Assembly: GCF_001522545.3 (NCBI RefSeq) | Contig: NC_031799.1 | Coordinates: forward strand, 44,182,981 to 44,246,980 | Reading direction: 5' to 3' | Length of the DNA: 64,000 nucleotides | Source: Parus major | Lineage: Eukaryota; Chordata; Aves; Passeriformes; Paridae | In this document: in pieces, positions 3,772 through 64,000 of the stretch | How positions within the stretch are numbered: the stretch's first letter is position 1 | Layout: each line of letters opens with the position of its first letter | The notes under the pieces: model-generated | Database searches by the model: none | What the model was told of the DNA's origin: nothing | Seen by the model: only the letters and a program-made list of their open reading frames with translations | Program-made: the position numbers and the translations under genes

Positions 3772-3834
3772 ATGTCAAAAAACCCTAAAAACTATTTATT
3801 TTTACCTCAGAATCTGTTGCTGAAGGACATTCTG
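3772..3834 (+). pseudogene. MAT-like exon 1 (relic)
   Basis: Positions 3795-3833 read FIFTSESVAEGHS, against the family's F-x-F-T-S-E-S-V-G-E-G-H-P, and end with one extra g before a consensus donor gtaagt at 3835, the expected phase. The possible start codon at 3772 is one base out of frame with this block, and the block's own frame has a stop at 3786-3788, so a frameshift lies between. The left edge is uncertain. Confidence 0.8.
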
Positions 3835-6800
3835 GTAAGTAAAAATGCTGATTGTATCTTTGCATTTATTGATGCTCACACAGAAGAATGCTATCTGATG
3901 AAAAGTTCCGTGATATCTCCCCCCAGTGGAGAAAAGAAATAAGCAAATTTATACTTTTGAATAGACTGTGGATTAGAGTTTTTGTTTTCTTTACTAGTAT
4001 TTGTCTTATTTGTTTAGTATGCAATATAATCTGATGTCAGTAATTTTAAACTTTTGCTTGAGAAAAGCATGGATCAGTCTACAGGTAGAAGCGGAGCTAC
4101 CACATATACTACTCTTGTAATTTATTTTTTTTTATTCTGAAATGAAAAAAAAAGTAGTTCTTTATGCACATGTGTATTGCAGGTGATTCTCTGAAATGTT
4201 TGGAATATTAAGCATTAATTGGCATCAGAGCTGCACTGCAGATACTGCTGTAATAATTCATATGTCTATTTGTCACATTGGTTTTGGTAACACAAGTTTA
4301 CAATGAGTTTAGGTTGTATAAAACCATTGTATTTTCCAGGTCTTGAACTGCAAGATGATACTTCAGCTCTAATTGTTCACTAAACTCAGGTATCTGTCAT
4401 ACAGTTTTGTTTGCAATAAAATTTATTTAGAAGCTGTGGAAACTGAGTCACTGGAGGAAGTTTGGACCTCCAACACACAAGGTAATGACTCAAATTTACA
4501 GTAAAAGTAGAACTTTCAAATGGAGAATTTTAATGTTAGGAGTTAACATTACCTCTTAATTTTTCCAAAGTAGAAGAAAAGGGAAAAAAAAAAAGTGATA
4601 AATAGAGGGTGCTGACAAACACTAAAGGTTGGCAGTGAATTTTTACTGATTAGAGGGAAATGGTACAGTGTGAGACCAATTATACCAGCCAGACTGCCCT
4701 GCCCCTGATGAACAGCCTAACAGCTCTGAGACCTCTGCAGCATGTGGCACCATAGCTTGAGCTACCACTTGTTTGCTGTGAAACAGTGCACTGTATGTTG
4801 TAATGGTTCACATAGGCAATAAAACTTACCAGCAGTTAAAGGTTATGCCTTCCTGCTCGAGCCTTGGACCCATAGGTGTGAATGAGTTTCTCAGTCTTCA
4901 GAACTCAGTTTACCTCAGGGTATCAAACTGGCCAGGTGACGTGGCATTCCTGATTTTATGTTTGCTTGCACACATGACTTCTGGGTCTGAAATTATCACC
5001 ACATGTTGTTTCTGTCTTTCATCTTATGTCCTTGTGTCTTCTGTGCTCAATTTTTATCAATGAAGGTGAAATATAACTTATGGAATTGATAAGAATTCTT
5101 AGCTTTTGAGTAGCAATAAGTTTCATAAATAAATGCTTAAGTTGGGAAATAATTCAGCACAAAGAGCTGAAGACAGAATTTACAGTTATCAAAATGATGG
5201 TGTTCTCGTTTTGCTTTTTTCCAAGCCTCTAAATTTTTCAACTTACATTTAAAGAAATGCGGTTAGATGTTTACCTTTAGCTTTGTTTGGGTAAAATGCT
5301 AGAAGTAAAATGTAAAAAGTACAGAAATTGCTGATTCATGTTGTAAAAATAATGTCAGTGAAGAAGAAACCTGTTTTCCATAAGGAAATCTCATGAAGAC
5401 GTTGAGACCACTGTAGCCTGTGTGAATAAAAGGGCCTCATGTATTTTTAGCACTCATGCTTTACTTTTGGTTATAATTTGTATTTGAGTGTGGTGGTATT
5501 GATGGGACAATGGCTCATGAAAACTACCTGCTAGAATTTCTCCCTTTTCCTTGCTTTTAGATTGTGATGAAATATAATTTAAGCTCTCATACTAAAATTC
5601 TATTTATACTTAAACTCTGCATTGAATTACAGATCTTTTAGAGTACAGAACAACTCTACTCTTGAATTATAATTTCATCCTGATGTTTGTATGCTTCCAG
5701 GCCAGATTATCTGTAAAAGTAAATAATTCGTTTAAGGTGAACACTCAATTATTATTTTCATTAATTTTCTCAGTGGGCCCTCAAGAGATGCTACTTTCAA
5801 TTGGCAAGTATGTGTGTAATTACATAGACTGTTACAAACTATCTGGGCACTTGGCTCACTAATACCGATGATCTTGTAGATCCAGCTGTATATCTGTGTG
5901 GCTGGATATATTTTGGATGGCTTTTTTTGTAATAATGGTGAGTGAAAATTAATTCATATTCCTTGTGTTGGTTTTGCAGATATGCTACCTCTCTCTCTCA
6001 GCTTGTAGTTTTGAAGTAATAACATGGATTACTTGCACTGGTTCAGTTATCCTGATGAGATAATCCAAATGTGTCCCCTAAATTGTTCATTAACTTTTAA
6101 CAAATCAAATGTATTTGACATACTCGGGTCTCATGTGGAAAATAGGTCATAGCTGCTAAAGATGGTATAGGTAAAATCTTTTTTCTCAAGTGTTCTTTTC
6201 CTGAAACAGAAAGATTAGCAATTCAGAAATATTGTGAGGGGCCAATGCTTGACCCTGAGAGAATATTTGCAGAAGCTTTTCTGAACCTGAATGAATCAGA
6301 TAGCAGTTCATAATTGCATGAACAGACCTCAGTATAATGTACCCTTTTGTAGGGATAGCAATTCCTCTTGCCATCCAAAAAAATTCACACATGGTATATC
6401 AGAGGTCCACAGTGCAGGTACAGGAGGGATAAACAGAAAATTTCTTGTAGAAGTGCTGACCTCTGACAGTCATAAGATGCAGATCAAAACAGGTAATACA
6501 CACAGAAAATGCAACACACAGTTTAAAATAAGAGGAGAAGAATGCAAAACTGCTAAAGAAAGGTCTTAGCTTAAATACTTTTTCCAAAATTACTACAAGA
6601 GTACTTTATTATCCTGAAATTATCCTGATTATTTCAGATGCCTTTACAGGCATTTTTCATTGTCCTCTCACCAAGGAGGCTGCTGGCCTGTGCAGGTGAT
6701 AGTAAAATGTCAGAAGTGACTTGAGGAGATGAGTGAAAGCAGGGTAAGACATACATTTTAGGATTTGATAAAATTGCTACTAGGCAGATGCCCAAAAAAC

Positions 6801-6902
6801 AGAAGTCTCTAGGCCACTGGAAATTACATTTTATTAAGAAATTGTTTGGGGGGGTTTTAATCAATAAAGAAATGTGATTTCTGTCTTATTTTTATCTTCT
6901 AG

Positions 6903-6979
6903 AAAAGCTATGTGATCAGATAAGTGATGCTGTCTAGATGCTCATCTCAGAATTGATCCAGATGCCAAGGTTGCCTGTG
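6903..6979 (+). pseudogene. MAT-like exon 2 (relic)
   Basis: Acceptor ttctag at 6897-6902 and donor gtaagt at 6980. It reads DKLCDQISDAV, then after one missing base (near 6933-6936) LDAHLRIDPDAKVAC. Length is 77 nt where the family exon is 78, so a single deletion explains the frameshift. Confidence 0.9.
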
Positions 6980-8502
6980 GTAAGTACAACACAGATAGAA
7001 AAACAAATTAATGAAGTACAACATGTAATCAACATTGATATAATGTCTTTTGTTCCAAAATTCCTCCAATAGCTGGCTGCCAGTCAAGACTTTCACAGTC
7101 AGTAAAGAGCTCAGCTGTGGCACTCTGATTCTGAAGAGAAGGAAAACCAGTAAAAAACCAGGAAAAATGAACAGAATAAAGGAAAGACATAGTACTCCAG
7201 TGCAAATTAAAAATTGTGAAATGTAAGAAATACACCAGGTGGTATGGAAAAATAGGGCTGTCAGGTAACATCAGTAGATGTTACTGATGAATCTATGAAA
7301 ATCAGGGAAAATGTGTGGAAAGATATATGTCAAAGTGCATGTCTTCACAAAGTAATTAGGGCAATTCCCATTGTTCACAGGAGGGTAAGATCATTTGAAT
7401 GTGATTCTGATCAAAGTGGCTTACTATTTTGTGTGACTTTCCATTAGGACTAGGCATGGATGTTGTCACTAGCAGTAGAGGCTATGAACACGTCACCGAA
7501 TTGGAGTGAGCCGGATTGTCACAGAAAAATGGAGACAGAAAGGGAATGTACCTAAAGAGCTTTCCAAATACAGTGATTTTAGTTCTAAATTATGCCACCA
7601 AGGCCATAGTTACAGCACAGAGGACTAACAGCATCTCATAAATGCAACAATTGAATATTTTTAATCTGAAACATCTCATGTGATTCTTGGTGCACAGATG
7701 TGAGCAGTGAGACGTGAGGAGAGGGTCTAGCATATGTGTTAGACTTGATGAAGCTTGTATTTCCATACTTTAGGAAGTTATGCTTCTAAAACTGCTGAAA
7801 AATTGAAGATGGTAACAGAGGAATGCTGTAAAAATGTCAAGGAAGAATGTGTGTAAGAGATGTGAGAAACAGGTGTGCCATGATTACACAGACCTAGTAG
7901 ATCATATTGTTGTACCAGCTCTTTTTTGTAATTGTCTGCTATATGTTTTTACATAAAACAGAAAAGTTTGCATACCAGATGGACTCCTGAAACAAAAAAC
8001 AAAATAAAATATTAAAGTGATTCCACACAAAATTTCTAATGAAGTTGCATAGCTTCTTGCTCCAGGATCTTGTCTTGTAGAAGTTTTTGTGGTTGCCAAG
8101 GACAACTGGGTGAATTACTGTAATAAAAATACATCGAAGACTGGTAATACCATCTGTTAATAAATTATGTTCCTTTGGCTTCAGGAAAACACTCAGCTGA
8201 AATTCTTGTATTTGGAGAAACAGCCCTACATACTCGATCTGCTCTTAGAGACATTTGCTTCCAGCCAATGTGAAGATAGGATAATTGGCTACAACAGGCC
8301 CCAGATTCATGCAGGCTTTTAAATGTTCTTATCAGCTGAAGACAAGAGTTGTTGCACAAAGACGCATAAGTGTGCTAAGGCTTTACACTGAGTTTCCTCT
8401 GCAATTAGTCTTTTGTTCACAGAACCATCTTCAGGATCTCTCTGTTTAACTGTGAAATAGTATAAGTAAAATTCTGATATTTTACTGACATATTTTCTCT
8501 AG

Positions 8503-8625
8503 AGTGTGTGGCAAAAACTGGAATGATTTTGCTCTGAGGAGAGATCACATGCCAGGCTATAGTAGATTATCAACAAAATTTAAGAGGGACCATTAAGAGG
8601 ATAGGATATGAAGACTCTTCCAAAG
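8503..8625 (+). pseudogene. MAT-like exon 3 (relic)
   Basis: Acceptor ctctag before 8503 and donor gtgggt at 8626. The 123 nt align without gaps to the family exon: AKTGMILL, stop, GEIT, IVDYQQ, TIKRIGYEDSSK. The only disabling change seen is a TGA at 8535-8537 where the family has Cys in LLCGEIT. Confidence 0.92.
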
Positions 8626-8693
8626 GTGGGTGAGATGCATGGTGCTGACAATACTGATTGTGGGTTCAAAGGATATATTGTCCATTCACTTAA

Positions 8694-8762
8694 GAGTTGG
8701 ACTTGATGATCCTTGTGGGTCACTTCCAACTCAGAATATTCTGATTCTCTGTGATTCTCTAA
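8694..8762 (+). mobile_element. CR1 3'-end fragment
   Basis: It contains gttggacttgatgatccttg and a tail of degenerate attctgattctctgtgattct units, the usual CR1 3' terminus. It lies about 70 bp after the third exon of the MAT relic, inside its intron. Confidence 0.85.
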
Positions 8763-9670
8763 TGATATCTTACATGTGTTCCTTAATGGGTCTGTTCTGC
8801 ATGTGGCCAAAGTCATGTTTTTTTTTGTCTTCTGATGAACAAAATGAAATGCGTATCCAGGCCTGGAAGAAGATTCACAACTGTTGTTGATATGTATTTC
8901 TCACTGATGATATCAAAGGAGTTAGTTTAAGGTGGCATACATGTAAAAGACTTATTCTTGAAAGTGTCTGGTATCTCTTGCTTTTCTGATGCAGAAGAAC
9001 TAGTATTTGTACAAATGTCAGAAGGTGCTTACATCTGTAGCTTTGTACAATGAAATTTTAACAGTGATGTTCCTTGTCCTTGGGGTGCACAAGCCTGTGA
9101 CACGGGAAGTTCACACCAAAGGAATTCTTTATGCATTCTTTACATGTATCCCAAAGGAGTTTCCTTTCAGCAGCTGAACTACTTACATCACTACTCCCCT
9201 TCAGTCTTCCCTTTTCATGTATGATGCATACTTTTTCCTCTAATTCAATTGAATTCTAGAACATACTACAAGAAAAACTCAGTAACAGTTTCTGGTAACA
9301 TTTTCCACAGTCCTCTACCAGGTTTAATACCCAAATTATTTGAACCCTAGTCAAAATAAGCAATGTCATAATATGCAATATCATAATAAACATAACAATC
9401 TTTGGCAGGGTAGCCTGTAGGATCACATATATCCTATCAGTTTCAAGAATTCAAGTTCAGCCTAATAGCACTAACCTACCCACATCCTGAAACTGTTAAA
9501 TAAATGTGCTGATTGTTGGATTCTGCTAGCAATAAAAAATGTAGGAAGCTTACATGCATAGAATTTTAAAAGTTTTAGCTAAGATAACTAGATAATCCTT
9601 AAAAACTTCTCTAGCAATTTGAGAACTCTCAAGAATGTATGAGCTAATTTTACAAAACTCCTTTTACTAA

Positions 9671-9783
9671 GACTGGACTGGAAGACTTGCACAGATTTAG
9701 TGGCCCTAGAATAACAATGTAAAGAAGTCAAGCAAGCTGTCTTCCATGGCAAGACTGATGATGACATTGGAGTAGGGGATCAG
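9671..9783 (+). pseudogene. MAT-like exon 4 (relic)
   Basis: It reads LDWKTCTDLVALE, stop (TAA 9712-9714, replacing Gln), and ends DDDIGVGDQ before donor gtaatt at 9784. It is an ungapped match to the FDFKTC...VGAGDQ exon. The acceptor looks damaged: the preceding sequence is tactaaga, so the usual AG lies one base out of register. Confidence 0.85.
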
Positions 9784-10366
9784 GTAATTCTAGGCACTTA
9801 CTCAAATCTAGTTTAAGCACAAGCAGTTAAAATTACAATGGACTGGAGCCCTTCTTTAAAAACTATTGTGCAAATTGCAAGAATTAGCAGTTGAGCACTG
9901 TGCACTCTCTCAATCACCAGAAGTGTGAAAACATATCACAGCCTTCAGCAGTTTCAAGGAAAATGGCTTTCCCCATATTCAGTGGCCTTAAAAGGATAGA
10001 GCTACAATTAAGGTTTTTGTCAGTCAGTAAGTTTCTGATCTTTCAAGTTCTTTAGCCTGGCAACATTTTCTGTGTCATATGTGAGGAGAAAACGGAGCAG
10101 TCTTGATGAGCTTTATGTTAATGAAGCCTTTTCAGCAGGTTATTACGGATGTGTAAGACAGAGCCATTTTTGGGAATCAGCCCCTGTTATGGCTGTAATT
10201 TTTGCACATAAATGTTATTTTGGGCTGGTTTTATGTGAAGGGTATTAACTCTGCATGTTACTGCTGTCTCTTGCTAAGCTTGGGTGATTCTGAAGTACTA
10301 TGACGCAAAGAGGTGCAGAATGGAAAGAGGACATGGGGTAGCTTATTTCCCCACTTTTCAGTGCAG

Positions 10367-10509
10367 TTCCCTGATTTTTTGACTATGCCACTGATGAAAC
10401 TGAAGAATACATGCCCTTAACAGTCCTCCTGGCACACAAACTGACCACAAGCATAAGGGCTCCGGAACAGAATGGAACGTGGCCCTGGGTCAGACCTGGG
10501 AAAACACAA
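10367..10509 (+). pseudogene. MAT-like exon 5 (relic)
   Basis: Acceptor gtgcag before 10367. From 10384 it reads [20 protein letters not shown] and ends PWVRPGKTQ at 10509, followed by gtttgt. The first 17 nt (ttccctga then a T run) are two bases longer than the GLMFG segment they replace, a frameshift. One codon is also missing relative to the family in the variable middle. Confidence 0.9.
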
Positions 10510-11664
10510 GTTTGTAATAGATGCATCAACTGTAAGGGTAAGAAACAACCAAAATAATTTACCCTGTCTGCTACTATATTACAATTTATGTTTGCCAAAA
10601 TAGTTGCTGTTGTTCTCATGTTCCAAGGTGATGTGAGTTCCATGAGGTATGTTTGTATATAGGACCTACATTTGTTTAAACTGTTCTATCAGTGTCTCAG
10701 CAGGTCTTTTCAAAGCAATACTTGTATTTTCCTTGTTTCCCCCTGGAGATTAAGGAACATGAACAATTTACCAACAATCAGGTTTGGGTTTTTTCTGAAT
10801 AATTTTACCAGCTGCTGACAGCTGTGTTTCTGTGTTCAGTGGATTAGTCACTGAGCCTGCTGTAGGAGTGATGCACTTTGGCTGTTTCAAAGACAGTAAA
10901 TTCTCTGTTTTCTGCGCTGTGAAACCTGAAGGACAGGAAAGACAAAACATACATGATACATGCTGAGCTTTCTGTACAGCAAAGTGTTTCAGTCTTAATT
11001 TCTGTTATTTAGTCTGGATCAAGTGCACTGAGTTACACTGCTGCTGCTGCTGTTGCACTTCTACATGGATTGTGTCCCTGCCTCTTGTTAGGAGTGTACA
11101 GAACATGTCAACAGGCTGATTTATGATGTATCTATTCATGTATGTTGGAGGAGTAGGAAAGTAGAGAGACCAATTTAGTCTGTAAGAAAACGGGTACTAA
11201 GGATGGAGCAATGCCAGTTTATACTTTCATGTGTATAAAAGCTCTGTAGAAGGGTGCAAAGGATGCAGCCTATCATATGATCTACAGTTGTTAATTTTAG
11301 GAGGGTTCTCCAAAATTTATTTTTGTTTTACTTTGCTAATCCACAATTTGAAAATATGTTAACACAGCAAACCAGACTGATTAGCTTCAACTGCTAAAAT
11401 TTGTAGCTTTCTTGCTGTAATTTTACTTCTCTGTGCCAATACATGTAATATCACATAGTTAACCCCTTTGGTAGTGTTTTTACTTTCCTACAGTGACATT
11501 TAAGCATTGACAACAATCCATTATTTTTCATCTTATTTGCCTTCATCTGTTTAGCTACAGAAAATAGCTGTGAGGTTCATTTCCAGCTTTCAGACATGTG
11601 TTTTTGGTCCTGAGTGTTCATTTTGGACCTGAGTGTTCATTGTCCATTTTTATTTCCTCACTAG

Positions 11665-11885
11665 GTCACAATGGAATATGAGGAATGCAGTGGTGCACTG
11701 GAGCCCATCCGAGTGCACACACTTGTGATTTCAATAAAGCATGCACCGGACACGTATATGCTACAACATATACAGAATGAGCTGATGGAGAAAGTTGTTT
11801 AAAAAGTCATTCCAGAGAAGTATCTGGATGAGGGAACCATTCATCATCTCCTTACAAGTGAAAAGTTGTAGAAGGTGGTCCTAAG
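11665..11885 (+). pseudogene. MAT-like exon 6 (relic)
   Basis: Acceptor cactag before 11665. It reads VTMEYEE, then EPIRVHTLVISIKH, NELMEKVV, stop (TAA 11800-11802) and KVIPEKYLDEGTIHHL. A one-base deletion near 11857-11875 creates a second stop and then restores a GGPK-like end before gtatta at 11886. One codon is inserted relative to the family, so 221 nt fits 74 codons minus one base. Confidence 0.93.
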
Positions 11886-13307
11886 GTATTACTTTGAAAA
11901 ATAATAACCATGCAGACTTGGACTCCACCAAATGCTTTTAAATGTTCTCTTGAACAATAGTGTAATGGAAGAGTATTACCTTTAACCAAAAAGTCTTTGC
12001 AATTTTAAGGAAGCTTCAGTTATTTCTACTGGAGCTTTCCTACAGGACATCTGTCACCTAAACTGAAGTTATAACGTTTTGGAGAGCCACATGTACACAT
12101 TCCTGGATCTTTGTCTTGCTTCCAGAAAGTATTTTAAGAGTAAGGGAAATACAATTCTTAAGTTATGTGCTAAAATGCAGGCTGGAAGTATCTCTTCACT
12201 TCCACAATAAAAATCAAAACCAGAAAAAACAATTGATCTGATATCTACATGGAAATTATTCACAAAGCTGAACAAATTTCAAAGGAGACTTAACATACTA
12301 AATATCAATTGTCATTAGAATTTGACATATGTTCTGCTTTCTAGTGCAGGTGTTAGCACTAGATAAAAAAGACACTGCTATGAAATTGTAAAAAGTTACC
12401 ATACACAAAACTGCCTAATTTGTGCAAAGAGTTCAAAAGGATTAAAACTATGAGGTGTGCTTTTAACCATATTGGGATAATGAAGGAATACCACTTTAAC
12501 TGAGAAATAAAAGTTGGCTTTGCTCCCATATTACTTATTTGGAGATTTAAATTGTGGATTATTGCCATTTATCCTCTTTCAGGATGGAATTTCTCAGCAG
12601 TCTGGAGTTCATTTATCAGTGTGTAGTTGCCAGCTTTACTAATCTGACAGAAAAGCGGTGTATCTCTCTTGGCTGCGTAAGTTGGCTCAACCCATAATGT
12701 TGTAAGAGGCAGACAAAATCTATGCAAGAATTTGAGACCACTATCAGGGGCACAGGAAGGAAGAAAGAAGAAATAAGCATAGTATCACTTGTGTCACCAC
12801 TGAGCCATTATGTGAACTGAGGTAGAATTTCTCAGTATTCTTGTGCTGACAACATTGAGCTGCAGTTCTGTGAAGCCCCTGCTTCCCATTTAGAGTGTGT
12901 ATCCAGGTGAAGCTTGTTAACCTTCTAGATTGTATGTGATCTGCTTTTGTCTCTCTAAGTTCTTGGCCTTCATCAAAGTGTTGCTGAGTGAAGACTTAGA
13001 CCAGTAGCCCACAGAAAGTATTTCGTAATTGCCGATTTGAAGGGAGTGTTCTTTTTGTCATGTTTACAGTTGTGCTGCATTGTTAAAGGATTTCAAAAGT
13101 GACTGCAGCACAAATGACTTAGTACATTTTTGAAGAGTACTCCAGCCATCTAGTGAACTCTTTCATTAAGCAGTTGCATGGGAATGTGAACATTGTAAAC
13201 ACTGTCATATACATGACAAATACAAAAGAAAGCTGTACTCAATAACCTAATATGGGGTTGGATTAGCTATTGTGTCTTGTGAATAAATTTATTTATTTGT
13301 CCTTCAG

Positions 13308-13489
13308 GCTGATGCTGGACAGACTGGCTAGAAGATCATTGTTGATAGTACAGAAGCTGGGGAGCCCATGGGGGAGGTGCATTCTCTGGAAAAGATCCCT
13401 TAAAAGTTGAGCATTCTGCAGCAAATGCAGGTCACAGGATTGCAAAATCTCTGGTGAAAGCTGGTATCTGTAGAAGGGTATTAATGCAT
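13308..13489 (+). pseudogene. MAT-like exon 7 (relic), active-site loop region
   Basis: Acceptor ccttcag at 13301-13307 and donor gtaaga at 13490. It begins ADAGQTG, stop (TAG 13329-13331), KIIVD. After a one-base deletion it continues [24 protein letters not shown] and [16 protein letters not shown]. The 182 nt equal the 61 expected codons minus one base. The glycine-rich loop and SGKD are still readable. The residue after KD is Pro, where MAT1A and MAT2A have Tyr. Confidence 0.93.
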
Positions 13490-15431
13490 GTAAGAGCAAC
13501 TGTAACAGTAATACACCAAATTCTGAAACACAAATTCTGTCCCAGAATACATACCGCCATCACAGCCTCTCTCCAGTTTCAGAAAATCTTTTCTCATAGT
13601 AGAATGGGGCTCCAGGAATTTTTTTGGATCCTTACGAGGGAAGCCAAAGACACAGGCCAGGATGGTCCTGAAACAAAGACCGAGTTCTCAGTAATCTTCT
13701 TTCTCCAACTCCTTTGTCATCCCAGGTCTAGATACTTCTTTGCATTGTCCTTGCATTTTAGATGTTCTGCACACACCTGCATGCCCAGCACGCCAGCCTG
13801 GGCAGCACAGCACATTGCATTTATAGGAGCACTTCTTAGATGTAGCTGTTCAGCTTGCAGCTTGCAATATGGTCATACTGGTTGTAACTAATCTGTTTTA
13901 AATTACCTTAATTTGTCCGTAGTATTCTCCTCTAGGATAGGGTGACTTTTCTAGAGTTTAAGACAAGAACGACTTTCATTAGTCTTATATGCTCAGACAA
14001 AAAACAATGCACTTCCTTGTGCATGAATTTTTATTATAAATAAGTCAGAGAAGTAAAAAGAGCTATTTTACTGACACCTTGACACTTTCACATGAACGGA
14101 ATGTGACTATTAAACAGTGCCATTTGTCTAGGCAAGTTTCAATACTACTTCATACAAATAACTTTTTCTGAGTAGCTGCTACGTCCTAAGTAATTACATA
14201 ATATTTCCTAAGTAAAATGTAGCAGCAATCTGGCCAATGCTTTGCTGCAGTGATGTGTTTAAAACTTCTTGCTTTCTCTATGGAGCAGAGGAGACGCCCA
14301 CTGAATGTGAGTATGATCAACAACACAATATCCAGACATCCCAATTAGCAACAAGGCTTCTTGCTTCGGATGTTGTGCATTGTTTGACACTTGATAGTTT
14401 GCAGTTAGTCAAGAAAAGGGTAGATAGGGAATAAACCAAGCACAAATGAGTTTTGGTTAGCATATGGTTGATTTTTTTTTCCTAAGGTAAAGAAGAAAAA
14501 CTTCTGATCTTTTCATATGCACATCTTGAGAGTAATTTTTCAACATCTACATCACTTTTTTTGAGTTAGGTGGGGATGTTGTTATTCCAGTAATTTTAAA
14601 GGATCTTCCTGAAATACAAATTCTAGGCAAGGAAAGAGTGATCTTTTTAACAGCAAATTATGGACATCTCAGATACTAGCAATGAAGATAAGATGGGAAG
14701 ATAATAGATCTGAAAAGCCAATGTTCTTTTAAGCCTTGAAGGCTGGATTGAAGATTAACAAAAGGAAAAATCTGTTAAGTGGAAATGCGAAAGTGATTTC
14801 AGCCCATTACTATCTGTGTGCTAGAGACCTTGCCAGCCTTCACTGAGGCTGACAGCTGAGCTGGCTCTCCTATGGATATTGATTTTATGCTAACCATCTC
14901 TCACAACAAAAGGAAAAACGGAAAATAGAGGTAACTGCAGTCTAATTAGATGTATATTAACACAATATTATTTAGTGTTACAGAGAATTGTCAGCTTATT
15001 GGCAAATGGAAATCATAATCTCATAATTAGCTAAGGGGAAGATAGTAACGATTAGAACAGTTTCTAAAAAAACAAAAGAAAAGAAAAAGCCAAAACCAAG
15101 CCATAAATATTTATAGAATTCAGAGTCTCCAATCCTTAAGGCTTGAAGTCCTTGTGCCTAGCTGAAACTGAAGGATGAAGAATAGCAGTAGCTGAGGATG
15201 ACAGAAAGCACCTCTTTTGTTTTAAAGGAATGTCACGTATGTCTAGTATTTGACCAGGGTCTGAGGAAAACTTTGATTTTTTTAACATAAAAGACAAATA
15301 GCAAAAACATATCTCCTAACTTTCCTATGGCAACAGGATGTTAATAAACTCTACACTGATGCATATGATAAGCCTTTCCTTTGTCTTAAGCAAAAAGCAG
15401 GAAGGACTGTATTAGTTGCATTTGGATTGTA

Positions 15432-15565
15432 TGCTTGTGTTCTACAGCTACCACATGCCCTCTTGCCATTTCAGTGTTCCATTATGGAACATCAGACAGA
15501 TCTGAAGAAGAACTGCCCGAAATTGTCCAGAAAAACTTTGATCTATGCCTTGGAGCTATTATAAG
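15432..15565 (+). pseudogene. MAT-like exon 8 (relic)
   Basis: The 134 nt are ungapped against the family exon. From about 15459 it reads CPLAISVFHYGTSDRSEEEL, then PEIVQKNFDL and GAIIR, with no internal stop. The bases before 15432 end in ta, so the original acceptor AG is lost. The nearest AG is 16 nt inside the exon and would break the frame. The donor is gtttgt at 15566. Confidence 0.9.
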
Positions 15566-15635
15566 GTTTGTGTGATGTTAGTATTTACTGTATGGAATCA
15601 TATTTTTAATGCTCTCCCTTACAGTTTAATTATCT

Positions 15636-15705
15636 GACTTATAACCTCAAGAAAGACACCTTCATAATAAATCTCTAATTGATATAATTTCTGCTCTTCC
15701 CTTAT
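15636..15705 (+). pseudogene. Candidate MAT-like last exon (weak)
   Basis: With one base skipped (15642) the sequence reads DL-NLKK-DTF, matching the DLDLKKPIY opening of the family's last exon, and a Phe falls at the spacing of AYGHF. Two stops follow and the rest does not match. The implied intron from 15566 would be only about 60 nt, ending at ttacag (15624), with extra bases before the match. Confidence 0.35.
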
Positions 15706-22586: not shown

Positions 22587-22591
22587 GTGTG

Positions 22592-23649: not shown

Positions 23650-24780
23650 GTGTGACAGACGGAGAGCTCTCCCCCACCGCGCCCTCCCGTGCGTCCCGGT
23701 GCTGGCACTGGGGGTGCAGGAAGGGCAGCGGCCCGTGAGGGTCGAGGGGAAAAGGGGGAAGGGCAGACTTGGGAAGGCCCCGTCCCGAGGGCAGACGAAG
23801 AGGGAAAGGACGGCAGCAATGCTCTGTGGGAAAAGCGCAGGTGCTGCCCAAGCGCCAGTGGTGCCGGCAGACAGGAGGACATTTATCTCTTGCCAACTGC
23901 CAACCTAAGTATCAATATGTGGAAACACCCCTGCCTGGGGAACGGCGGCCCTTCCTGAGGGAAAGCGCCGCGGGGAGGGCGGGAAGGCGAGCTTCGCGCC
24001 TTGCCCGCGGCCGACAGGAGCGGGGAGCCGGGACCGGAGCCGGAGTCGGTGAGGGGACGCGGCAGGGGCGGAGCAAGGCGGGGGCCGGGGCGGGAGCAGG
24101 AGCTCCTCCCGCGGGGCGGAGCCGCGCCGGGCCGGGCTGCGGCGGGCGGGCGGGCGGCACCGGGAGCGCGTAAGTGACGCAGCGTTCCCGGAAGCCGCCC
24201 GGAGCTGAGGGAAGAGCGGCTGAGGGGACGGTAGAGGAGGCAGGCGGGCTCTCGCCGCGGCTGTCGGTGCCTCGGCGGAGCCTTCCAACTCCGTCCCACT
24301 CTGATTCCATCCCTTTCTGTCCCGTTCTGTTCCGCTGCCTGCCAGGGGCCATGTCGCTGTTCCAGTCCGCCCTGGACTTCCTGGCGGGCCCCGGCTCACT
24401 GGGAGCCGCCAGCCGCGACCAGAACGATTTCGTGGGGCAGACGGTGGAGATGGGCGACATGAAGCTGCGCATCAAGCGGGTCATCGCCGAGGGTAAGCGC
24501 GAGCGGCAGGGCCGGGCCGTGCGGGGCGGACCCCGGCGCTGCGGGGCTGGGATGGGCTTCCCCGCGGGCCTCCCGCTCCTGTTTTCCCCGTCTCCTGTTC
24601 CTAGACCGGGAGGGTTTCCTCCTTGGCAGGCCGCACCCGGGTGGGGGCGGGCGGGCGGCGGGCGGGGCGGCAGTTCCGGCCTCTCGGGAAGGGCTGGAGG
24701 TGTCCGAGCCGCTCCGCGCCGAGCCGGTGTCCCAGGCACGGAGGGACGGTGTCCCCAGGCCCTGGGGTCGCAGCAGGGCT
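23650..24780 (+). promoter_or_regulatory. GAK: GAK CpG-island promoter and 5' UTR
   Basis: GC content and CpG density rise sharply, peaking around 23940-24720, in a window that is otherwise AT-rich. Visible elements include GC boxes (GGGGCGG at 24065-24071, 24087-24093 and 24113-24119), a run of GGG triplets at 24141-24156 that could form a G-quadruplex, tgacgca at 24175-24181 (CRE/AP-1-like) and an ETS-type ccggaag at 24188-24194. There is no TATA box. The pattern fits a broad housekeeping promoter. The exact start site cannot be read from sequence. No ATG lies between 24171 and the GAK start. Confidence 0.85.
24351..24492 (+). CDS. GAK: GAK exon 1 (residues 1-47)
   Basis: Starts [18 protein letters not shown], one residue shorter than human in the following linker. 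Ends in the first base of a Gly codon at donor gtaagc (24493). The beta-1 strand of the kinase domain begins near residue 39. Confidence 0.97.
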
Positions 24781-27700
24781 TGGTGTTACTGTCCTGCCTC
24801 AGGAATAGCCACCGAGAGCCGCTGTGTTGTGTGGCTGCTTCTTCGCTTGCTTTGTGGTTTAAAATGCCTTCACCGCATAGCTCAGAGGAGTTTGTAATCT
24901 GTCAGGGTCTTTATAATCTACTAAAGACCTCATGGAAGTTCTGGATTGTGTTTTTTATTTTATTGGTTTTTTTAAACGACAGTGTATGATATTATGCCAG
25001 ACATGCAAGATTGCCTCTGTTATTTGGGGTTGTTTAGAAGACTATGGAATGCAGGAAATGTGTTTGTTTCAAACACAGTTGTCAAGAGGTTGGTCTTACT
25101 GTGCACATAGATTTTGCTAGAGTACGAGGAGTTAAATATCTGGGCAGCTTCCAGTTTCAGTGAAGTTTTGGGTAGGAAGCCTGGCACATGACTTGTTAAT
25201 CTGTTTTAGAAAAGATGCAGTGTTTGATAGATGTAAATTACTTAGATATTAGCAGAAATTTGGATCATCTTGTGCTTGTGGTCAGAGAAAATGCAAAAGA
25301 AGAACCGCTGGAGGATAGTCTCAGAAGACTAAGATGTGAATTTCTATACTACTGCAGTGAAATATTTCATTAACTTTGTAGAGATGGTTGATGTTATTTA
25401 GGTTAAATACCTCAAAGCTCTATTCAGCACTCCTTTTCGTTATTGGAGTTTTTTTCTGTAGTTTCTTCTTGTAATTATCTGATACTAAATAGTTTTCTGT
25501 TGAAATCTAGGTGATCAGCGTAGAGGAAAAATTTGGTTAGAATTAGCTACTTCAAACCACTTATAAAAATTTTTGTGTTGTAAAACAGCAGCAACTGGGT
25601 CTCCACCACTGCTTTGTCTTCTTAAGGGCAATAATTTATCACTTGAATGCTCAAAGACTTCTGGCACATGATCTTAGAGAAAACCTGGCAGTTTTTTATG
25701 TAGTAAGTTGCATTTAAAACAGTACTAAATGTCGTGTCCTCCTGTTTGCCTTCAGCCTTTACTTACACCTTCTTTACAGTCAGAATTGTGATTGAAATGT
25801 CTTTGTCTTTTAGCATTCACATCCTCAGTAGGATGTGAATGCTAAAAGAGCTGTCTGTGCTGCTGATACTGTAACATTATTGCCCTCAGTGACCACAGCA
25901 GTTACCAGAGGACAAAGGAAAGTTAGGGCAGGAAGCTATTTTTGAAGCATATATGCTATTTGGTTATGCTTCTGTAGCAGGTATTTTAGTACTTCACTTT
26001 GACAGCAGCCTACTGTTTCCCAGAATCTGACACAGCCTTTGTAAAATGTCAAGGGAAAGATGCCAGGTTAGATGACTTAAAGCAAATGGAAACATGCTTT
26101 AACTCTACAGTTCTTGACAATTTCTCTGTAACCAGAGAAATTTGTGTTACATTTTTGTCTCAGTGTTATGGTATTATTTTATGTTGTCTTCTTTTCTTAT
26201 TTTGCCAACCAAAGTTGGACTAGTGGCTTGCTTTTTCTGGAAAATATAATTTTCTAGCTGCATTTCTTCAGTGTAGCTGGTCTAAAAGACCCCTTGTGGT
26301 ATATTGAATATAAAGCTAAAATAGATATTAAGTACAGAAGTCCTGTTCTCTCCTGCTGTCTTCAGTCTTGAATTTGTATAGTTTATTTTGTTGCTCAAAT
26401 TACGTTTATCTTTCAGCTCTGGATGTGTTGTGGTACCTTCTGATACATGGGTCCACAGCTGTGGCTTGTGTGTATTCCCTTCCACGATTACAAATATAGA
26501 ATCTGCATTTCTTCTAGATGGGTTCTCTCATGCCAAATTTCCTACTGGAAAGTCAAGTGCTGCTTTCTGAATTTGGATTTCAAATCCATGGTGAACTGTG
26601 TGTCATCTGACGATGCAGATAGAGAACCTTTTCCATAGGCTCGTATGCTCAGCTTTGTTTGTAGCTGGTGTGAACAGAGCCTGTGGTTTAGCACTGCGTG
26701 GTGTCATGTGGCAGCACAGGTTCAGTTGTTCCCATAGCCCACAGCTCCTTCCAGCTCTGTAGCGTGCAACAGTGCTGGTGCAAATTCATGTGTGGCTGTG
26801 CTCTGAGACTTCTTGCACAGGTTGCTTGGATGTGATTTCCTGTTTGTTTCACAGAGGTGTCATGCTGGGGTAGGACTGGGCTGATTGAAAATGTGATGTG
26901 CTGCTGCAGGAGGCTGACAGCAACCTGTGGGCAATGAGCTGGTGATGATCTCTTGTATTGATACTACCTCTAAATGCAAGAACAGACTTAAGAGTGTCAC
27001 AAACTGGACTGAGCACTCTTAGAATATGGTATCCTGGTTCTTTTTCTGCTTGGACATTTCAGTAGCTCACTGCAGATAAGATTTTAGAGGACCTTGGTGG
27101 GGGGCCTTTATATATGATCTCTACTTGCCCTTGGTATGATGGTGGCTTTATGTGTCATGGCTCTCTTGGATCCTCCCGTTAAGTGCACAGACACCCACAC
27201 AGTTTTACTTAAGTAAAATAGTCACATATTTCCTCCGTAATTAGTGAATATTGTTGCTTCTTTTGTATATGAGACTGAACAATTTAGAATAAACCAAGTG
27301 TTTGGTTGTGTGAAAAACAGGGAACAAGCAAGCACACGTTTAACAACCATTCTTCACGTGTAATGAGTTCTTAGGCTTCCTTTGAGCAAGACATTGACAA
27401 AACAGCACACAAGAAGAGAACATGATGAGAAAAAGAATGCATTATTCAATCTGTTTGATCTGAGTCTAAAGCTTTTACTGTAGTGGAAAATCATTCCTTA
27501 GTTAGGAAGATAGCAATAGGATACAGACATAAATGGGTACAGACTTTAAATTTTTTTTTTTTTTTTAGTGTAAAACTAGATGTCATAACTTGAAGCCACG
27601 TAGGTAGGTAACTTACTACGATCTGCTTTCTGTCAAGGTGAAACTTCTGCAATTAAAGCAACTTTTTTTTTTTTCTTTTCTTTGTTACTGCAGGACTTCC

Positions 27701-30700
27701 TCAGTATTTTGAGTGTGAGCAGGCAGTATTACAGGTTGCCAAACTTACAGGAACAATTCTATGGTCTGTGCAGCTGCTGGATTCATAGGATAATGATAAC
27801 CTAATTAAGTTGAGGCTTTTGAGCAGATTTAATTTGTAAACTTTTAGCATCAGAGGCACAATGAATGCTTAATGTTAAGTTTCTGTGGGTGTTGTTAATT
27901 TGCTGGTAAGTGGGGGGAAAATAAGATGATTCCTAAAGAGCAACTAAAGCACCTGACCTAGCAACTTTCCAGTTGGCATTCTCTTTACTGTAAATGTAGA
28001 CAATGTTTTCAACATGGAGCAGAACAGTTCTATTTTTTAAGGCTGTTGTTTCTTGGCTGTAGCAATTCCTGCTTGCAGGGTAGCTTTGAAACTTTCAAGA
28101 TATTCTACCTCTCTGCTTCTCAAGGGTGTGTACAGGTCTTTAAATTTGGGCCATCCTTCATTCTTGAGGCAGTTTCATTGTGTTACTAGGACTTTGCAAT
28201 GGACACAAATGCATGACTGGGCTTCAGAAGAAAAATGCTTGTGAATCAATGTGTGGCAACAATAACTGAGCGTGTTTTCTTTTTTGATACTCTGATAGAA
28301 ATCAAAGTTTTCAGGTAAGATGCACTGTAACTTACAGTCCAGATTAGAATTATAGTGTTTCAATCAAGTTATAGCATAAACCACTGAAAGTTGATATGGA
28401 AACGAATTTGGTCAGTATTTGGGAGGAGAGTAGAAAAGTCATATCAAATAGTTACAAACAGGAAGCTACCCGCACCCTCACTTTCTCATGACTAGTTAAG
28501 TGTGTAATGAAACAGTCAGTGAATTACAGTAGCAAGCAGTGTTACAATGTGGTTGATGTCCCTATTTTGATGCTCTGTATTTGTCACTTTACTGAAGCTG
28601 CTTATCTGAAATGATAATTTGTGGAGATGTGAAAAACAGGGACATGATAGAAAAGAACAGTTTAAAATTCAGCTTAATGTGTAAATGCAGTGAAGTTATT
28701 CAGTATTATGTGATGTAGGTTTGACTTGAGGGAGAATCCAAATGTCTTGGTTGGAAAAGCAGCAGTCTTCCAGTCTCTCTAAGAGAATGATGAGGTATTG
28801 ACAGGACCACTGCCTGAGGCCTGTGATGGTGCAAAGACAAGTGTAGAGTGCTCACTAATAAAGCAAATGAGCTACAGTTAGTTCCTGATTTTCATGGTGT
28901 AGTGCTCTGTAGCGAGCCTTGATGTGTGAGAGCTTGTGTCTACAGAAAAGAAATAAACCTAGTTTTCTTCTGCTGTAATTTCTGTACTAGAAAATACTGT
29001 CTGAGATGACTTTGGAGGGCTTGGGCTGTCTTCTGAGAACGGGGCTCTGAAATGCCTCACCAATGTAAAACCTGTCTCTGTGGGCAGCAGTTGGGATGGG
29101 TGTGTACATATCTCTACACTGGTGATCTGTATGGGAGAATACTAAGATGATTTTGCTGATACAGAAAGCCTCAGAAAACTGTCTTAAAACCATCTACAAA
29201 CATTTACATGAGTGGAAAAAATGAGTGAAAACACCCCAAATGTAATTACATTATTCAGATGCCCATCGAAGTTTTTCTTTTAACTTCCATTTTACGATTT
29301 GCCTCACTTAGGTCTGCTGTACAGGTGTTTGTAGAGGTTTGTTGAAAGTACTTTTTAAATTATTTTTTCTGAATGTTTGCAAAATATATTGGTCAGGGAG
29401 CTTGGAGTAAACTGTTATGGCAGATCAGAAATTTTGCCGGTAAACTTGTCCCTGATGAGGGTATATTAAAACTGCTTTAATAGACTACTTCTTCGAGGGA
29501 GCCAGCATCGAACTATAAATGAAACTGGTTTTAAGTAAGAAGCAGTAGGAATAGTTTTGCCTTTTGTGTAAGAATTGTTTTCACTAATAGCAGATGGTTA
29601 AAAAAAAAAGAAGTTAGAAGTATCTTCACAACATGCTGTAACTCCTTTGGTATCCCAGAAAATCCATGGAATTAAACATGGTATCTGCTGTAGAAGTGCT
29701 GCAGAAGTAATGAACTAAACACTACATAGAATGAGCCAAGTTGTATGGAGCTGAGTTTGTGAAAGAGTGAAAAGACAGAATGGGAAACTTACTTGAAGCT
29801 GATGTTTTGAAAGGGGCATACTTGTAAAAGGTGAGCTTGTAGGTCATAGCAGTTTCTACAGTAAGAATAGCAGATTCTGAGTAAGGCAGGTGTAATGAAG
29901 TAGGAATTAACCAGGCTCGATACCACTGGCTTTTCTCTGGAGATCTGCAAAGTTTAATGAACTCCATTCTGTTTAGCATTTCTTAGTACTTGATAATAAG
30001 GTACAATCACTGAAGTAGAAATGCGTATTTTAAGCTAGTTATGTACTCTCAAACTTCCGCTATCTCAGTGAGGTTGCACAGTGTTCTTGAGCAAAGAAAG
30101 AGAAAATAGATAATTTGACAAAAGAAATTTGAAGGAAAATATTTTATGGAATAACACATAGCAATTTAATAACAATATTACTGTTATTGGAATGTGTGCT
30201 TCAGTGCTTGAAAAAGATTTCTGCTTTTAATACAAAGCATGAAGCATGACAATTATCTTAAAAATAGGAGGTGTATGTTTAGCACTTATCTTCCTTTGTT
30301 ATTGCTGTATTTTATACAGTGTTAGCAGTGTAATATCAAAAAAGTTTAATTGAAATATCAGGTAGTATTTGCTTTAATGCAGTTTGGTTTTATAAGAAAA
30401 AAGTGTCTTCATAAGAAATCTGCATATGCAGACTTAAAAAAATGCAGGAGAGTAACAAAGTCAGTGTGCTCTTGACATATGTACAGGCAAGGAAGAGAAT
30501 ATCTGAAGTCTTGCTGAATATCAGCCATCTTGACCAGATGCTGAAAAATGTGTACTTGGTACGTTCAGACATGTATCTAAATTCATGTATTGATTCTGTT
30601 AGACTAAAAAGAATGATGTACATGAATATTGAAATTAAAACTGATGTAATGTGCCTTCTTCTTGTAGGGGGCTTTGCATTTGTCTATGAAGCTCAAGATC

Positions 30701-33700
30701 TTGGAAGTGGCAAAGATTATGCTTTGAAGGTAATATTAATTTACTTCACTATAGGTTTGTAAGGTCTGTCTTTTAGCTTGATATTTTAGCATGACAGTTA
30801 GTCCTTGATGTATGCCACAGAGCAAGTAACTTGGAAAAATTCAGTGTATTAGTGGTGTTTGTAGCCCACTATTTAGAATGATCATTCCAGTTAGAACCAT
30901 GCACTTCATTATTAGATGACAAACAGGGGAATTGATATTTTAGGTACCTCTGGCCTTTATTTTTTTGTTTGGTATAGAAATTCACGATCCAGTCAAAAAC
31001 ATTTTGTTTCATGGGTAAAAAGAATATTTCATAGTGACCTGAAGTAGAGTACAGGAATCTTCTTCACTTGTCAGAAGCAGATTTAGCCTACCTTTGTACT
31101 TTAAATTTCCTTAGTATTAAAAATAATGCTCCAGGCTTTGACTCATTGTTTAACCATTCAGCTTGGTACTTTTTAGAGATACTTTTCTGGATCCTTGGTT
31201 TCTGGAGGCTTCTGGTAACTGTAAACAGGGTTAGTTGTAGGAGGAATGGGAGAGGTAAGTTGGCATTATACCACCAGTAATAACTTTGCCTTTTCCCCTT
31301 TCATTCCACATCCTACAGTAACAAAACATGTGTTCAAAGATCCTCATTAAAAAAATAACAGGTAAAAGGTGAACCATTACTATACTTCGTCTTTTCTGTA
31401 AAACCAGTACTTTTGAAGTGAATGCTCAGGCTGATTGTAGTCAAATTTTGACTGCAAATCCAGGTAATACTAGAAACAGTAATGCTTAATTTTGCTACTG
31501 ATTACACAAGTACCATTGAAAAAGACAGGATACATGATCTGGTGAGTTTAGTGTAGAGTGAGTTGAAGGTTGTTGCTGAATATTTCAGACAGAAGGCGAA
31601 TCTTTCCTTGATAGCCCACAATGCTGCAGCCAGGAGACTTTAGCGCTTTATATATCAGAACTGCCAGAGCAGTTACTTTTAAGAGTGTAAAAAGTTACAA
31701 CTGCTCAATTATCACTAAACCTGAATAGTCCAGGTAACTGGAAAGCTGGTTATGATTTATGGCAGAATATCAAAATGTACAATAAGCCAGCTTGGTTTAC
31801 TGTCCCACTACAGTTCCTTAGGTTTTTGTCTATAGTTTATCCTTCATATTCCTTCATTGAAAAAAGATCTATGCACTGTTAATTCTGTAAGTTTCAGTAA
31901 CTATATCCTCTCAATTATTTTGGTTTTTTTTGGCAGCGACTGTTGTCTAATGAAGAGGAAAAGAACAAAGCCATCATTCAGGAAGTTTGTTTTATGGTAT
32001 CCTTTTCTGTAACATTTAACTGCCTAAGATTTCTGGGAAAGGAAAGATTGCTGTACAGATTCTGTTTTTCTTCATGCCATACACTGCCTAAGTGGACTGA
32101 CATTCTGGAGGTATGGGTTCATGGTTTGTTATGAATCTGGTGCCTACATCCAAAAAGTTCAATTCTTCAAAAATTGCAGTAATACAGTGTGTGCAGATAA
32201 TTTTTGTAGCTAGTGTAGACTTTGCCATGAACTTCTAGCAAGAAGATGGATTCTTATTTGAACTCTCTTGCAGCCCTTTGAATTTAGTCAAGAGACTTTT
32301 TGACTTCAGATGACGGTTAATTCTTAAATAGAGTTCCCTCGCATGCACTGAATTTATTGCTCTTTGCTTTTACTCTCAATGTTTATTAATTTCTGCTTTG
32401 GATACATCTGGCTTTAAGAAGTCATGCTGGATATAAAGGAAGAAATTTCTGTAGACTACATGCATCAGAAACAGGAGGCAGATGTTTCTCAGTGTCCTTG
32501 CTGTCCTCCATATCTGCAGTGATGTCAGATACTAAGGTATAATGTAATCTTGGAGTGTTTTCAATCCTTGATTTTAGGAAGTTCAATATTTTCTCCCTGG
32601 CCTGGCTCCTTATGGACCCTTGGTTTGTTTCAAGAGTCAGTGAATAGCTGTGGTGTGCTGATGTGTTCCCTTTTAAGCATTCAGCTTCATTTTAAATTAG
32701 CAGGCAAACCCACTGATCCTAATTTAAGCTACTCAAACATTTCTTTTCATGACTGCTGGTATGTTTGGCAAAATCTCAGCCTAAACACCAGTAGAAGTAC
32801 ACTTCCAAGGCAGAGTACCATAGCACTGTACATTTCCTGTTTATTCTGACCTTATCTTGGCAAGAGTAAAGAACTTAATGTTGATTGGATGTTTTTCACA
32901 GGTCAGAGTCATTAAAGCAGGTGTAGAATATGAAGAAGTGTTAATTGTTGCTAACTTTCTGAGATAAGACTGTGAAATGCAATTAATTCCTGCAGGTCTG
33001 AATAGAGGGTTGTGGAAGAGATGTGTAAGATCAGATTAATGTGAATTGTGTGGATCCAACTTGCCCTTTTTTAATAGCTTTGTTCTACTTACAGTATCTT
33101 TGCTTTTCTCTCTTTAGATTTGGTAAATGCATCCTGTAAAAAGATTTTGATTGTCTCACAGGCACAAATCTCAGTGTAGGCACAGACAGGCATAATGCAA
33201 CATAACTTCCACTAGCAGGAGCTGAGATCACTTATATTGTACTCCCCTTTACGTAGCTCAAAAATGATACCTCAAATTTTTGAACTGAAACATGATAAAG
33301 TTTTGTAGCATAAAAAAATATTACTAATGATGGGAGGGTAAGTTCCTTGCCCCTTTTGACCTCTGATTGTTTTGAACTCTATTTTAATTACTTAAAACTG
33401 AAGCATGGCATATTTAATACTTCCTTGGGAAAGATAGGTGAGGGTACAATAGCCCTTTCTTGATCAGCCATCTAGAGAAGCAGCTGATAATTAGAAGATG
33501 TCCCTGCTACTCATGCTAGGCTCTTGGCAGTCATTGTCAAAAAGCAAAAAGAAGTAGACCTGTTACTGAGTCTAGTTTCTTCCAAGCTGTAATCATAAGG
33601 ATTTTTTAATATTTTATTTTGACTTTTTATTACATCACCTTAGATTGCTTTCTCAGATTTCTTATAGTTGAAGCATATATTTCCCTGTTTTGCTTTGGGT

Positions 33701-62658: not shown

Positions 62659-64000
62659 GTAATAAGAAATTTAAGATCCTGAATTGAAGATTTGCTCTTT
62701 TTTGGTTGCAACTTTGCATCCTACTAATTATCTACTGAGTACTTTGCTTTATTTTCTATTCATTGTTCAGAGAAATGAATAGAGGTTTTCATTCACTTGT
62801 GAATTCAGCCTTCTCCAGCCTTCTGGATACGTTCACTCCTAATGCTGTACATATAAATGCTTTCATAAACATTTCTGGAAAGTTATTCAGTATTGATAAT
62901 TGTTATATTTGTAGGGAAGAAAGCCCCTAGCCAGTATTTTTGAGGCAGCAATTAATATCTGTTAAGTTGCACAAGAAGCCAGAACTTTCTAATTCTGTGC
63001 ACACAAACAAACTCCAAAGGAAAAGCCCCACTCAGCAGAAAAGTGATGTTTGAGAGACTGCCTGTACAAAACAGGCTAGAAAAATCCATGTGGTTTTATA
63101 GCCTATTTCTAAAGTCAGGTTCCATTTTTGTAGCTGTTTTTCTTACTTCTATGTGCTACTAGGGAGAATGCATATTTCCTTTTAAAATTCAACTATGGGT
63201 GCAAATGTAGCGCAAGATCACAAAAAACATGTTAATGAAGCCTGTCTTCAAATTTTTTGAAAGAGAGGCGTGTTCTTTTTCCTCCAGATAAGTAACCCAA
63301 ATTAAACTTGGAAATCCATGTAAAAGATAAGGAGGGGTAGTGCAGGGTTTAGAGCTTGGAGCTTTATGGAAATTGATCAGCCAGTTTTTGAGCCAGTTTC
63401 AATTCATGCAGGACATACATGTGTATTCATACCCAGTAAGTGTTACTGAAGTTGTTTTCCCTTTTTTCTTTCTGCTTTGTGAGTAGAAAGGTGTCATGTT
63501 GTCGCATTGTAGAGGCTCAACAAGAGTTTCCAGAATACCTTTAAACTAAAAACTCACTGAAATTATTCCTTAATGCACAAAAATAACTACTGCATGGTTC
63601 AAGGTCATCAGGAGAAAGGCATAAAACTGACAAAATTTATCCAAGGTTAGGTTATATTCCTTGTACCATCTCACTTTTATTCCTGACAGTTTCTTTGATG
63701 TGGTTTCTCTGGCATTTATTCAGTGATAGAAAAGATTAGAATTTTCTCAGCTATCAGCTATAACACATGGTACGTAACAGTGTGTGTGATGATCTGGGTT
63801 TGGAGGTTTGGAACAATATTCGACGTGTCCTTAGGTTTTATGTGCTGTAAATTGCCCCCTGAAGTTCTCTGCAGATCTCTCACAGAGATTAACCACCACA
63901 TTTCAAGATTTCTCCTGTGTTTAAAGCTGGCCGTTGTGAATATCTTCTACTTTCTTCCAGTCCCAAATTAGTTTGGGAGAGGATTTAGTTTATCTTCTAG
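62659..64000 (+). other. GAK: Start of GAK intron 17, runs off the window
   Basis: No sequence matching the next part of the C2 domain, and no repeat or RNA gene that I recognise. Confidence 0.8.

Follow-up and report, generated by a model that had tools for sequence, protein, structure and literature searches.

Accounts of S-adenosylmethionine (SAM) synthesis in vertebrates usually name just two genes, MAT1A and MAT2A. Here we address the question raised by a third, visibly decayed MAT gene of Parus major, which lies in a stretch of 64,000 nucleotides (hereafter the window; contig NC_031799.1, positions 44,182,981 to 44,246,980): is it a spoiled copy of one of the two known genes, or what is left of another lineage? 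We conclude that MAT2AL, which is the third MAT gene of vertebrates, has almost certainly become a unitary pseudogene at this locus of an oscine passerine; no other copy of the gene was found.

A tblastn search of the window with human MAT2A yielded eight ordered exon matches, which place exons 1-8 of the relic on the + strand at 3772-15565. E values ranged from 4e-17 for exon 7 to 0.003 for exon 2 and 0.056 for exon 1, and the best match outside the relic locus had an E value of 0.82. The exons measure 63, 77, 123, 112, 143, 221, 182 and 118 nt, as compared with 94/91, 78, 123, 113, 144, 219, 183, 134 and 103 nt in this genome's MAT1A and MAT2A, both of which are intact. Matches and lengths together bear out an earlier, sequence-only reading of the eight blocks as successive MAT exons. 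The one lost acceptor that it had also proposed was not confirmed: acceptors are AG at all seven sites and donors GT at all eight. Seven introns are retained, with exon junctions at conserved MAT positions, and a processed pseudogene (retrocopy) is thereby ruled out, as that reading had argued. Isoforms of chicken (P0031) and gharial (P0088) skip whole exons at junctions that are kept in the relic.

The disabling changes are spread over the gene (all exons on the + strand). Exon 1 (3772..3834) has its start codon and a GTAAGT donor, with a frameshift between the ATG and FTSESV; the codons 5' of the ATG spell R-Y-Q-N, a feature shared with the over-long model of the living Chaetorhynchus gene (P0002). 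Exon 2 (6903..6979), bounded by an AG acceptor and a GTAAGT donor, has lost one base, and exon 3 (8503..8625) contains an in-frame TGA at 8535. Exon 4 (9672..9783) is one base short at its 5' end, which shifts the frame at the exon 3/4 junction, and has a TAA at 9712; exon 5 (10367..10509) has gained two bases near its 5' end and lacks one codon. Exon 6 (11665..11885) carries a TAA at 11800, an added codon near 11752 and a one-base deletion near 11866. In exon 7 (13308..13489), a TAG at 13329 is accompanied by the loss of one base near 13347; PF02773, a Pfam domain of the MAT family, matches this exon (C32:44196326-44196490) above its curated cut-off (E 1.3e-10), with one TAG inside the match. 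Exon 8 (15448..15565) has kept its AG acceptor and ends at a GTTTGT donor, and 16 bases are missing near its 5' end. The count thus comes to four in-frame stops, where at least four had been claimed, and seven frameshifts, where several had been. The combination of an open frame and an intact active site that marks a functional MAT enzyme is absent from the relic, which also has substitutions, among them D31E and D291E, where the reference set does not vary.

Nothing was recognised 3' of exon 8, from 15565 to 15705. The best score for avian MAT2AL exon 9 was equalled in 51 of 100 shuffles in the interval 15560-24340 and in 21 of 30 in the whole window; the best scores for exon 9 of MAT2A and MAT1A in 15567-24000 were equalled in 127/200 and 81/200 shuffles, respectively. 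A whole-genome search revealed exon 9 only at the MAT1A and MAT2A loci, and none on C32. Exon 9 of the relic may have been deleted, or may be concealed by decay.

The relic is situated between TMEM175 and GAK, neighbours that were established in this genome only. GAK exons, located with a human GAK probe, extend over 24351..62661 on the + strand and form the anchor 3' of the relic; further exons follow on the same contig, to window coordinate 84974. The position upstream of GAK given in the sequence-only reading is therefore correct, with both genes on the same strand.

The extent of amino-acid change is consistent with decay at an approximately neutral rate. In the relic, departures from the majority state in birds number 14 in the 122 columns that are invariant in 48 living MATs, 14 in the 120 that are invariant in birds only, and 19 in the 81 that are variable within birds. 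At universally invariant columns, the living bird MAT2AL models have 0/122 (Pipra), 0/115 (Mohoua), 3/111 (Chaetops), 3/118 (Eudyptes) and 6/128 (Chaetorhynchus) changes. Because some living models also depart from invariant columns, such changes alone are no proof of death, unlike the stops and frameshifts, which prove that the relic is dead. In simulations of neutral decay, the observed amino-acid change of 11-15% fits about 0.06-0.08 substitutions per site. Neutral sites of passerines evolve at 2-3.5e-9 per site per year, and at this rate the decay of the relic would have lasted roughly 17-40 million years.

The sequence-only reading had left two options for the origin of the gene, a decayed copy of MAT1A or MAT2A and a third lineage that might persist in other sauropsids or fishes. 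A tree of 50 rows, of the kind it had called for, placed the relic inside MAT2AL as sister to Chaetops (support 95/84), within a set of six passerine rows (97/96). Since the Chaetops model (P0010) is partial and reads into intron 4, the relic's place in the clade is more certain than its exact position as sister. When the relic was forced together with the eight MAT2A rows, the only alternative submitted to the AU test, lnL dropped by 156.7 (p-AU 7.7e-110). The relic shows the MAT2AL state in all 16 readable columns diagnostic of amniote MAT2AL, and its HMM scores are 584 bits for MAT2AL, 465 for MAT2A and 460 for MAT1A. A segmental duplicate of MAT1A or MAT2A from this same bird would account for the exon lengths and phases, which the relic shares with both genes. 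The relic aligns with MAT2A over exons 1-8 but is identical to Chaetops MAT2AL at 252/299 positions, as against 207/323 (64%) for its own MAT2A and 195/323 (60%) for its own MAT1A, and it falls outside both of these clades. Both genes, moreover, stand at separate loci (MAT1A on C8, MAT2A on C23), each with nine intact exons and open frames. Tree, AU test (for MAT2A), diagnostic residues and the two intact genes together lead us to reject a recent duplicate and leave a decayed segmental copy only a negligible probability; of the two options, it is the third lineage that gains support. At 395/395 positions the intact MAT2A matches that of Passer domesticus, and it has no mismatch to that of Poecile either; the intact MAT1A is 98.7% identical to that of Hirundo rustica. 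Taken with the tree, these identities indicate an oscine, probably a member of Passerida.

It is also very improbable, if slightly less so, that the relic is the dead duplicate of a second, living MAT2AL copy in the same bird. The assembly consists of 1669 contigs and parts may be absent, so that the finding of no further MAT2AL copy, intact or not, applies to a possibly incomplete genome. However, MAT matches occur at three loci only, all 21 genome matches to the closest living MAT2AL fall on MAT1A, MAT2A or the relic, and the relic has kept its seven native introns. That the dead features are artefacts of assembly or annotation in a living gene can be entertained insofar as the evidence comes from one assembly, but it would have to explain four stops and seven frameshifts over eight exons, the lack of exon 9, and more changes at universally invariant positions than in any of the living genes from Pipra to Chaetorhynchus, in an assembly in which MAT1A and MAT2A are clean. 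We give this explanation hardly any credence.

Relatives of the relic with open reading frames have been annotated for birds, turtles, a crocodilian, squamates, lungfish, ray-finned fishes and a chimaera. The relic agrees with living members (e.g., Pipra P0001, Malaclemys P0003 and zebrafish mat2al) in clade, diagnostic residues, exon junctions and a divergent gating loop, and differs from them in its stops, frameshifts, D31E and D291E, and in the lack of a recognisable exon 9. Judging from active-site residues, living MAT2AL is probably a catalytic MAT that converts ATP and L-methionine to SAM, with its divergent gating loop. In the passerine lineage it would have been dispensable beside intact MAT1A and MAT2A; stops and small indels would have built up approximately neutrally while the gene stayed where it was, between TMEM175 and GAK, and exon 9 would have been lost or altered past recognition. 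Even if spliced correctly, a transcript would go out of frame in exons 1-2 and then meet more stops, so that no protein should be possible.

A third MAT lineage is not new as such: its zebrafish gene already bore the name mat2al ('methionine adenosyltransferase II, alpha-like') in 2012 (PMC3410756). Trout mat2al appears in a primer table (PMC8954868), and another table gives its gene id as 'S-adenosylmethionine synthase-like' (PMC7459646). The sauropsid genes are annotated under this same name, and our literature search found no paper on MAT2AL in sauropsids, birds included, or on its loss.

The relic represents a genuine gene loss within a known, little-studied enzyme family, whose MAT2AL branch still looks alive elsewhere, and no new kind of system. 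It places the third MAT gene of this bird between TMEM175 and GAK, and indicates that this gene can go while MAT1A and MAT2A stay intact. More tentatively, MAT2AL may be an early-vertebrate paralogue whose gating loop diverged in bony vertebrates, with 18 of 19 examined active-site positions kept, and which was lost repeatedly and independently (perhaps in mammals, amphibians and penguins, and here in a passerine lineage); the interval would then make a natural series in which to explore the role of a third SAM synthase. TMEM175-GAK is a clear site for mapping such losses over birds, mammals and amphibians and for relating them to methionine metabolism.

The window search with human MAT2A returned eight exon matches in order on the + strand (3795-15566; E 4e-17 to 0.056), and the best match outside this locus had an E value of 0.82. 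Bounded by splice sites, the exons of this relic of a methionine adenosyltransferase (MAT) gene lie on the + strand at 3772-3834 (63 nt), 6903-6979 (77 nt), 8503-8625 (123 nt), 9672-9783 (112 nt), 10367-10509 (143 nt), 11665-11885 (221 nt), 13308-13489 (182 nt) and 15448-15565 (118 nt). GT is present at 8/8 donors and AG at 7/7 acceptors; the one lost acceptor claimed in the sequence-only reading was therefore not confirmed. A ninth exon of the relic was sought and none was recognised. The bird's own genome (1.02 Gb, 1669 contigs; window at C32:44182981-44246980) carries MAT1A on contig C8 and MAT2A on C23, which, when joined, each have nine exons, consensus splice sites and no internal stops, with exon lengths of 94/91, 78, 123, 113, 144, 219, 183, 134 and 103 nt. 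The length differences of relic exons 2-8 from these genes are frameshifts and two codon changes, and exon 1 is shorter also because the N-terminus is shorter in living avian MAT2AL, the third vertebrate MAT lineage.

A frameshift-tolerant alignment with a living manakin protein (Pipra, P0001) identified four in-frame stops, seven frameshifts, one lost and one gained codon; 270 of the 338 codons aligned were identical. A further frameshift mark, placed where exon 8 ends, reflects the split codon and was not counted. The earlier observation of a dead MAT gene at this locus stands. It differs from the avian majority at 47 of 323 readable codons. Changes affect 14/122 columns invariant across 48 living MATs, 14/120 invariant in birds only and 19/81 variable among birds; the two invariant classes changed at similar rates, which is the expectation in the absence of selection. 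In the living controls, universally invariant columns were changed at 0/122 (Pipra), 0/115 (Mohoua), 3/111 (Chaetops, perhaps through its intron read-through), 3/118 (Eudyptes) and 6/128 (Chaetorhynchus). Simulated neutral decay produced relic-like change at about 0.06-0.08 substitutions per site, where four stops fall inside the 5-95% range; with a substitution rate that we assume, this is crudely equivalent to tens of millions of years. We infer that the relic makes no protein product.

The joined exons (X at stops, a few bridging residues at frameshifts; X only in the tree version) were searched against proteins, as had been proposed. Among the best 120 of 7997 matches, the top ranks went to bird, turtle and lizard proteins annotated as 'S-adenosylmethionine synthase-like' or with a METK name, and next came 'methionine adenosyltransferase II, alpha-like' proteins from lungfish and fishes; neither MAT1A nor MAT2A was among the first. 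A tree of 50 rows placed the relic inside the MAT2AL clade, as sister to Chaetops (branch supports 95/84) in a passerine set (97/96), and recovered separate MAT1A (98/91) and MAT2A (97/93) clades. Forcing the relic into MAT2A cost 156.7 log units (p-AU 7.7e-110; AU test run on the MAT2A grouping). As the relic also has the MAT2AL state at 16/16 readable diagnostic columns, descent from a third lineage, the bolder of the two origins offered earlier, stands. The closest living MAT2AL (Chaetops, P0010) gave 21 matches in the whole genome (eight on C8, seven on C23 and six in the relic), and this search revealed no further MAT2AL copy.

Orthology is also visible outside the coding sequence: the codons ahead of the relic's ATG read R-Y-Q-N, a string shared with the living gene of Chaetorhynchus papuensis in its over-long model (P0002), and intron 4 begins V-I-L-G-T-Y-S versus V-I-P-G-N-Y-S read through in the Chaetops model. 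Exon 5 alone is missing from a chicken isoform (P0031) and exon 7 alone from a gharial isoform (P0088), both at the relic's junctions. The relic is flanked by TMEM175 (- strand, about -4317 to -13876 in window coordinates) and GAK (+ strand, exons 24351 to 84974), which were located with human protein sequences; in human, we take the two to adjoin each other head to head, with no intervening MAT gene. An AT-rich, simple-looking stretch lies between the relic and GAK (21444-21600). ORF fragments on the - strand at 962-1312, 39213-39512 and 39731-40537, the latter two within a GAK intron, look like CR1 retrotransposon reverse transcriptase.

By best profile score, 249 proteins (best 120 per listing) were assigned to MAT2AL (109), MAT1A (109) and MAT2A (31). 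Among the matches listed, the named MAT2AL-best proteins (11 were without name) belong to birds, turtles, Gavialis, squamates, Protopterus, ray-finned fishes and Callorhinchus. None of these 109 carries the name of a mammal, an amphibian or a coelacanth (best 120 per listing), which hints at independent losses and is suggestive, not proof. Callorhinchus groups with MAT2AL (100/99), and lampreys are sister to the MAT2AL clade (97/87, 50-row tree), although the lamprey proteins score best with the MAT2A profile, by margins of 8 and 5 bits. The split therefore dates back to the jawed vertebrates or earlier, subject to the caveat that a single mollusc roots the tree. Zebrafish mat2al maps to chromosome 10, with CNS-enriched expression at 1 dpf (PMC3410756). 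Novelty is limited because the family already has a name in zebrafish and annotated members among public proteins; searches of the published literature found neither the avian relic nor the pattern of MAT2AL loss.

Of 19 positions that we take to be active-site or ligand positions of MAT2A, 18 are kept wherever filled in 24 living MAT2AL rows, apart from three single-row exceptions (E23Y in one, Q113H in Buteo, R264Q in Carettochelys); partial models leave gaps, which at E23 reach 8/24 rows. C takes the place of T58 in 24/24 rows, and G248 and Q256, near the active site, are changed in most or all amniote rows tested. Human MAT1A and MAT2A share the gating loop SPDIAQ with the mollusc and the lamprey, whereas the MAT2AL rows displayed from bony fishes and tetrapods have altered loops (CKEIKH and the like). 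Callorhinchus milii MAT2AL (P0241 / P0238) keeps the ancestral core SPDIAQ. Judged by these residues, living MAT2AL would be catalytically active in SAM synthesis, with its gating or regulation altered.

At 185 reference columns invariant in 30 non-avian rows, the relic departs at 26/162, compared with 6 to 12 departures in nine avian MAT2AL rows and 0 to 2 in nine MAT1A/MAT2A rows from birds. Higher avian MAT2AL values were found in Chaetorhynchus (15/185), Eudyptes (16/175), Eudyptula (19/175) and Nyctibius grandis (20/172), the last with 14 of its 20 departures in one C-terminal stretch, which looks like model error. Six reptile rows depart at 7, 7, 8, 9, 13 and 20 columns, the highest being Varanus, where a single N-terminal stretch accounts for 8 of the 20. 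The changes in P0002 (Chaetorhynchus), which include E23Y and G133E adjoining D134, may reflect either a relaxation of constraint or a gene model of poor quality. The little penguin (Eudyptula) model (P0012) has I-R-A-T inserted between exons 7 and 8, as if a GT donor had been lost; the start of relic intron 7, V-R-A-T (13490-13501), matches this site. Decay of MAT2AL may also be under way in penguins (Eudyptes, P0011; Eudyptula, P0012). We conclude that the relic is a unitary pseudogene, in an oscine passerine, of a known, hardly studied third vertebrate MAT.
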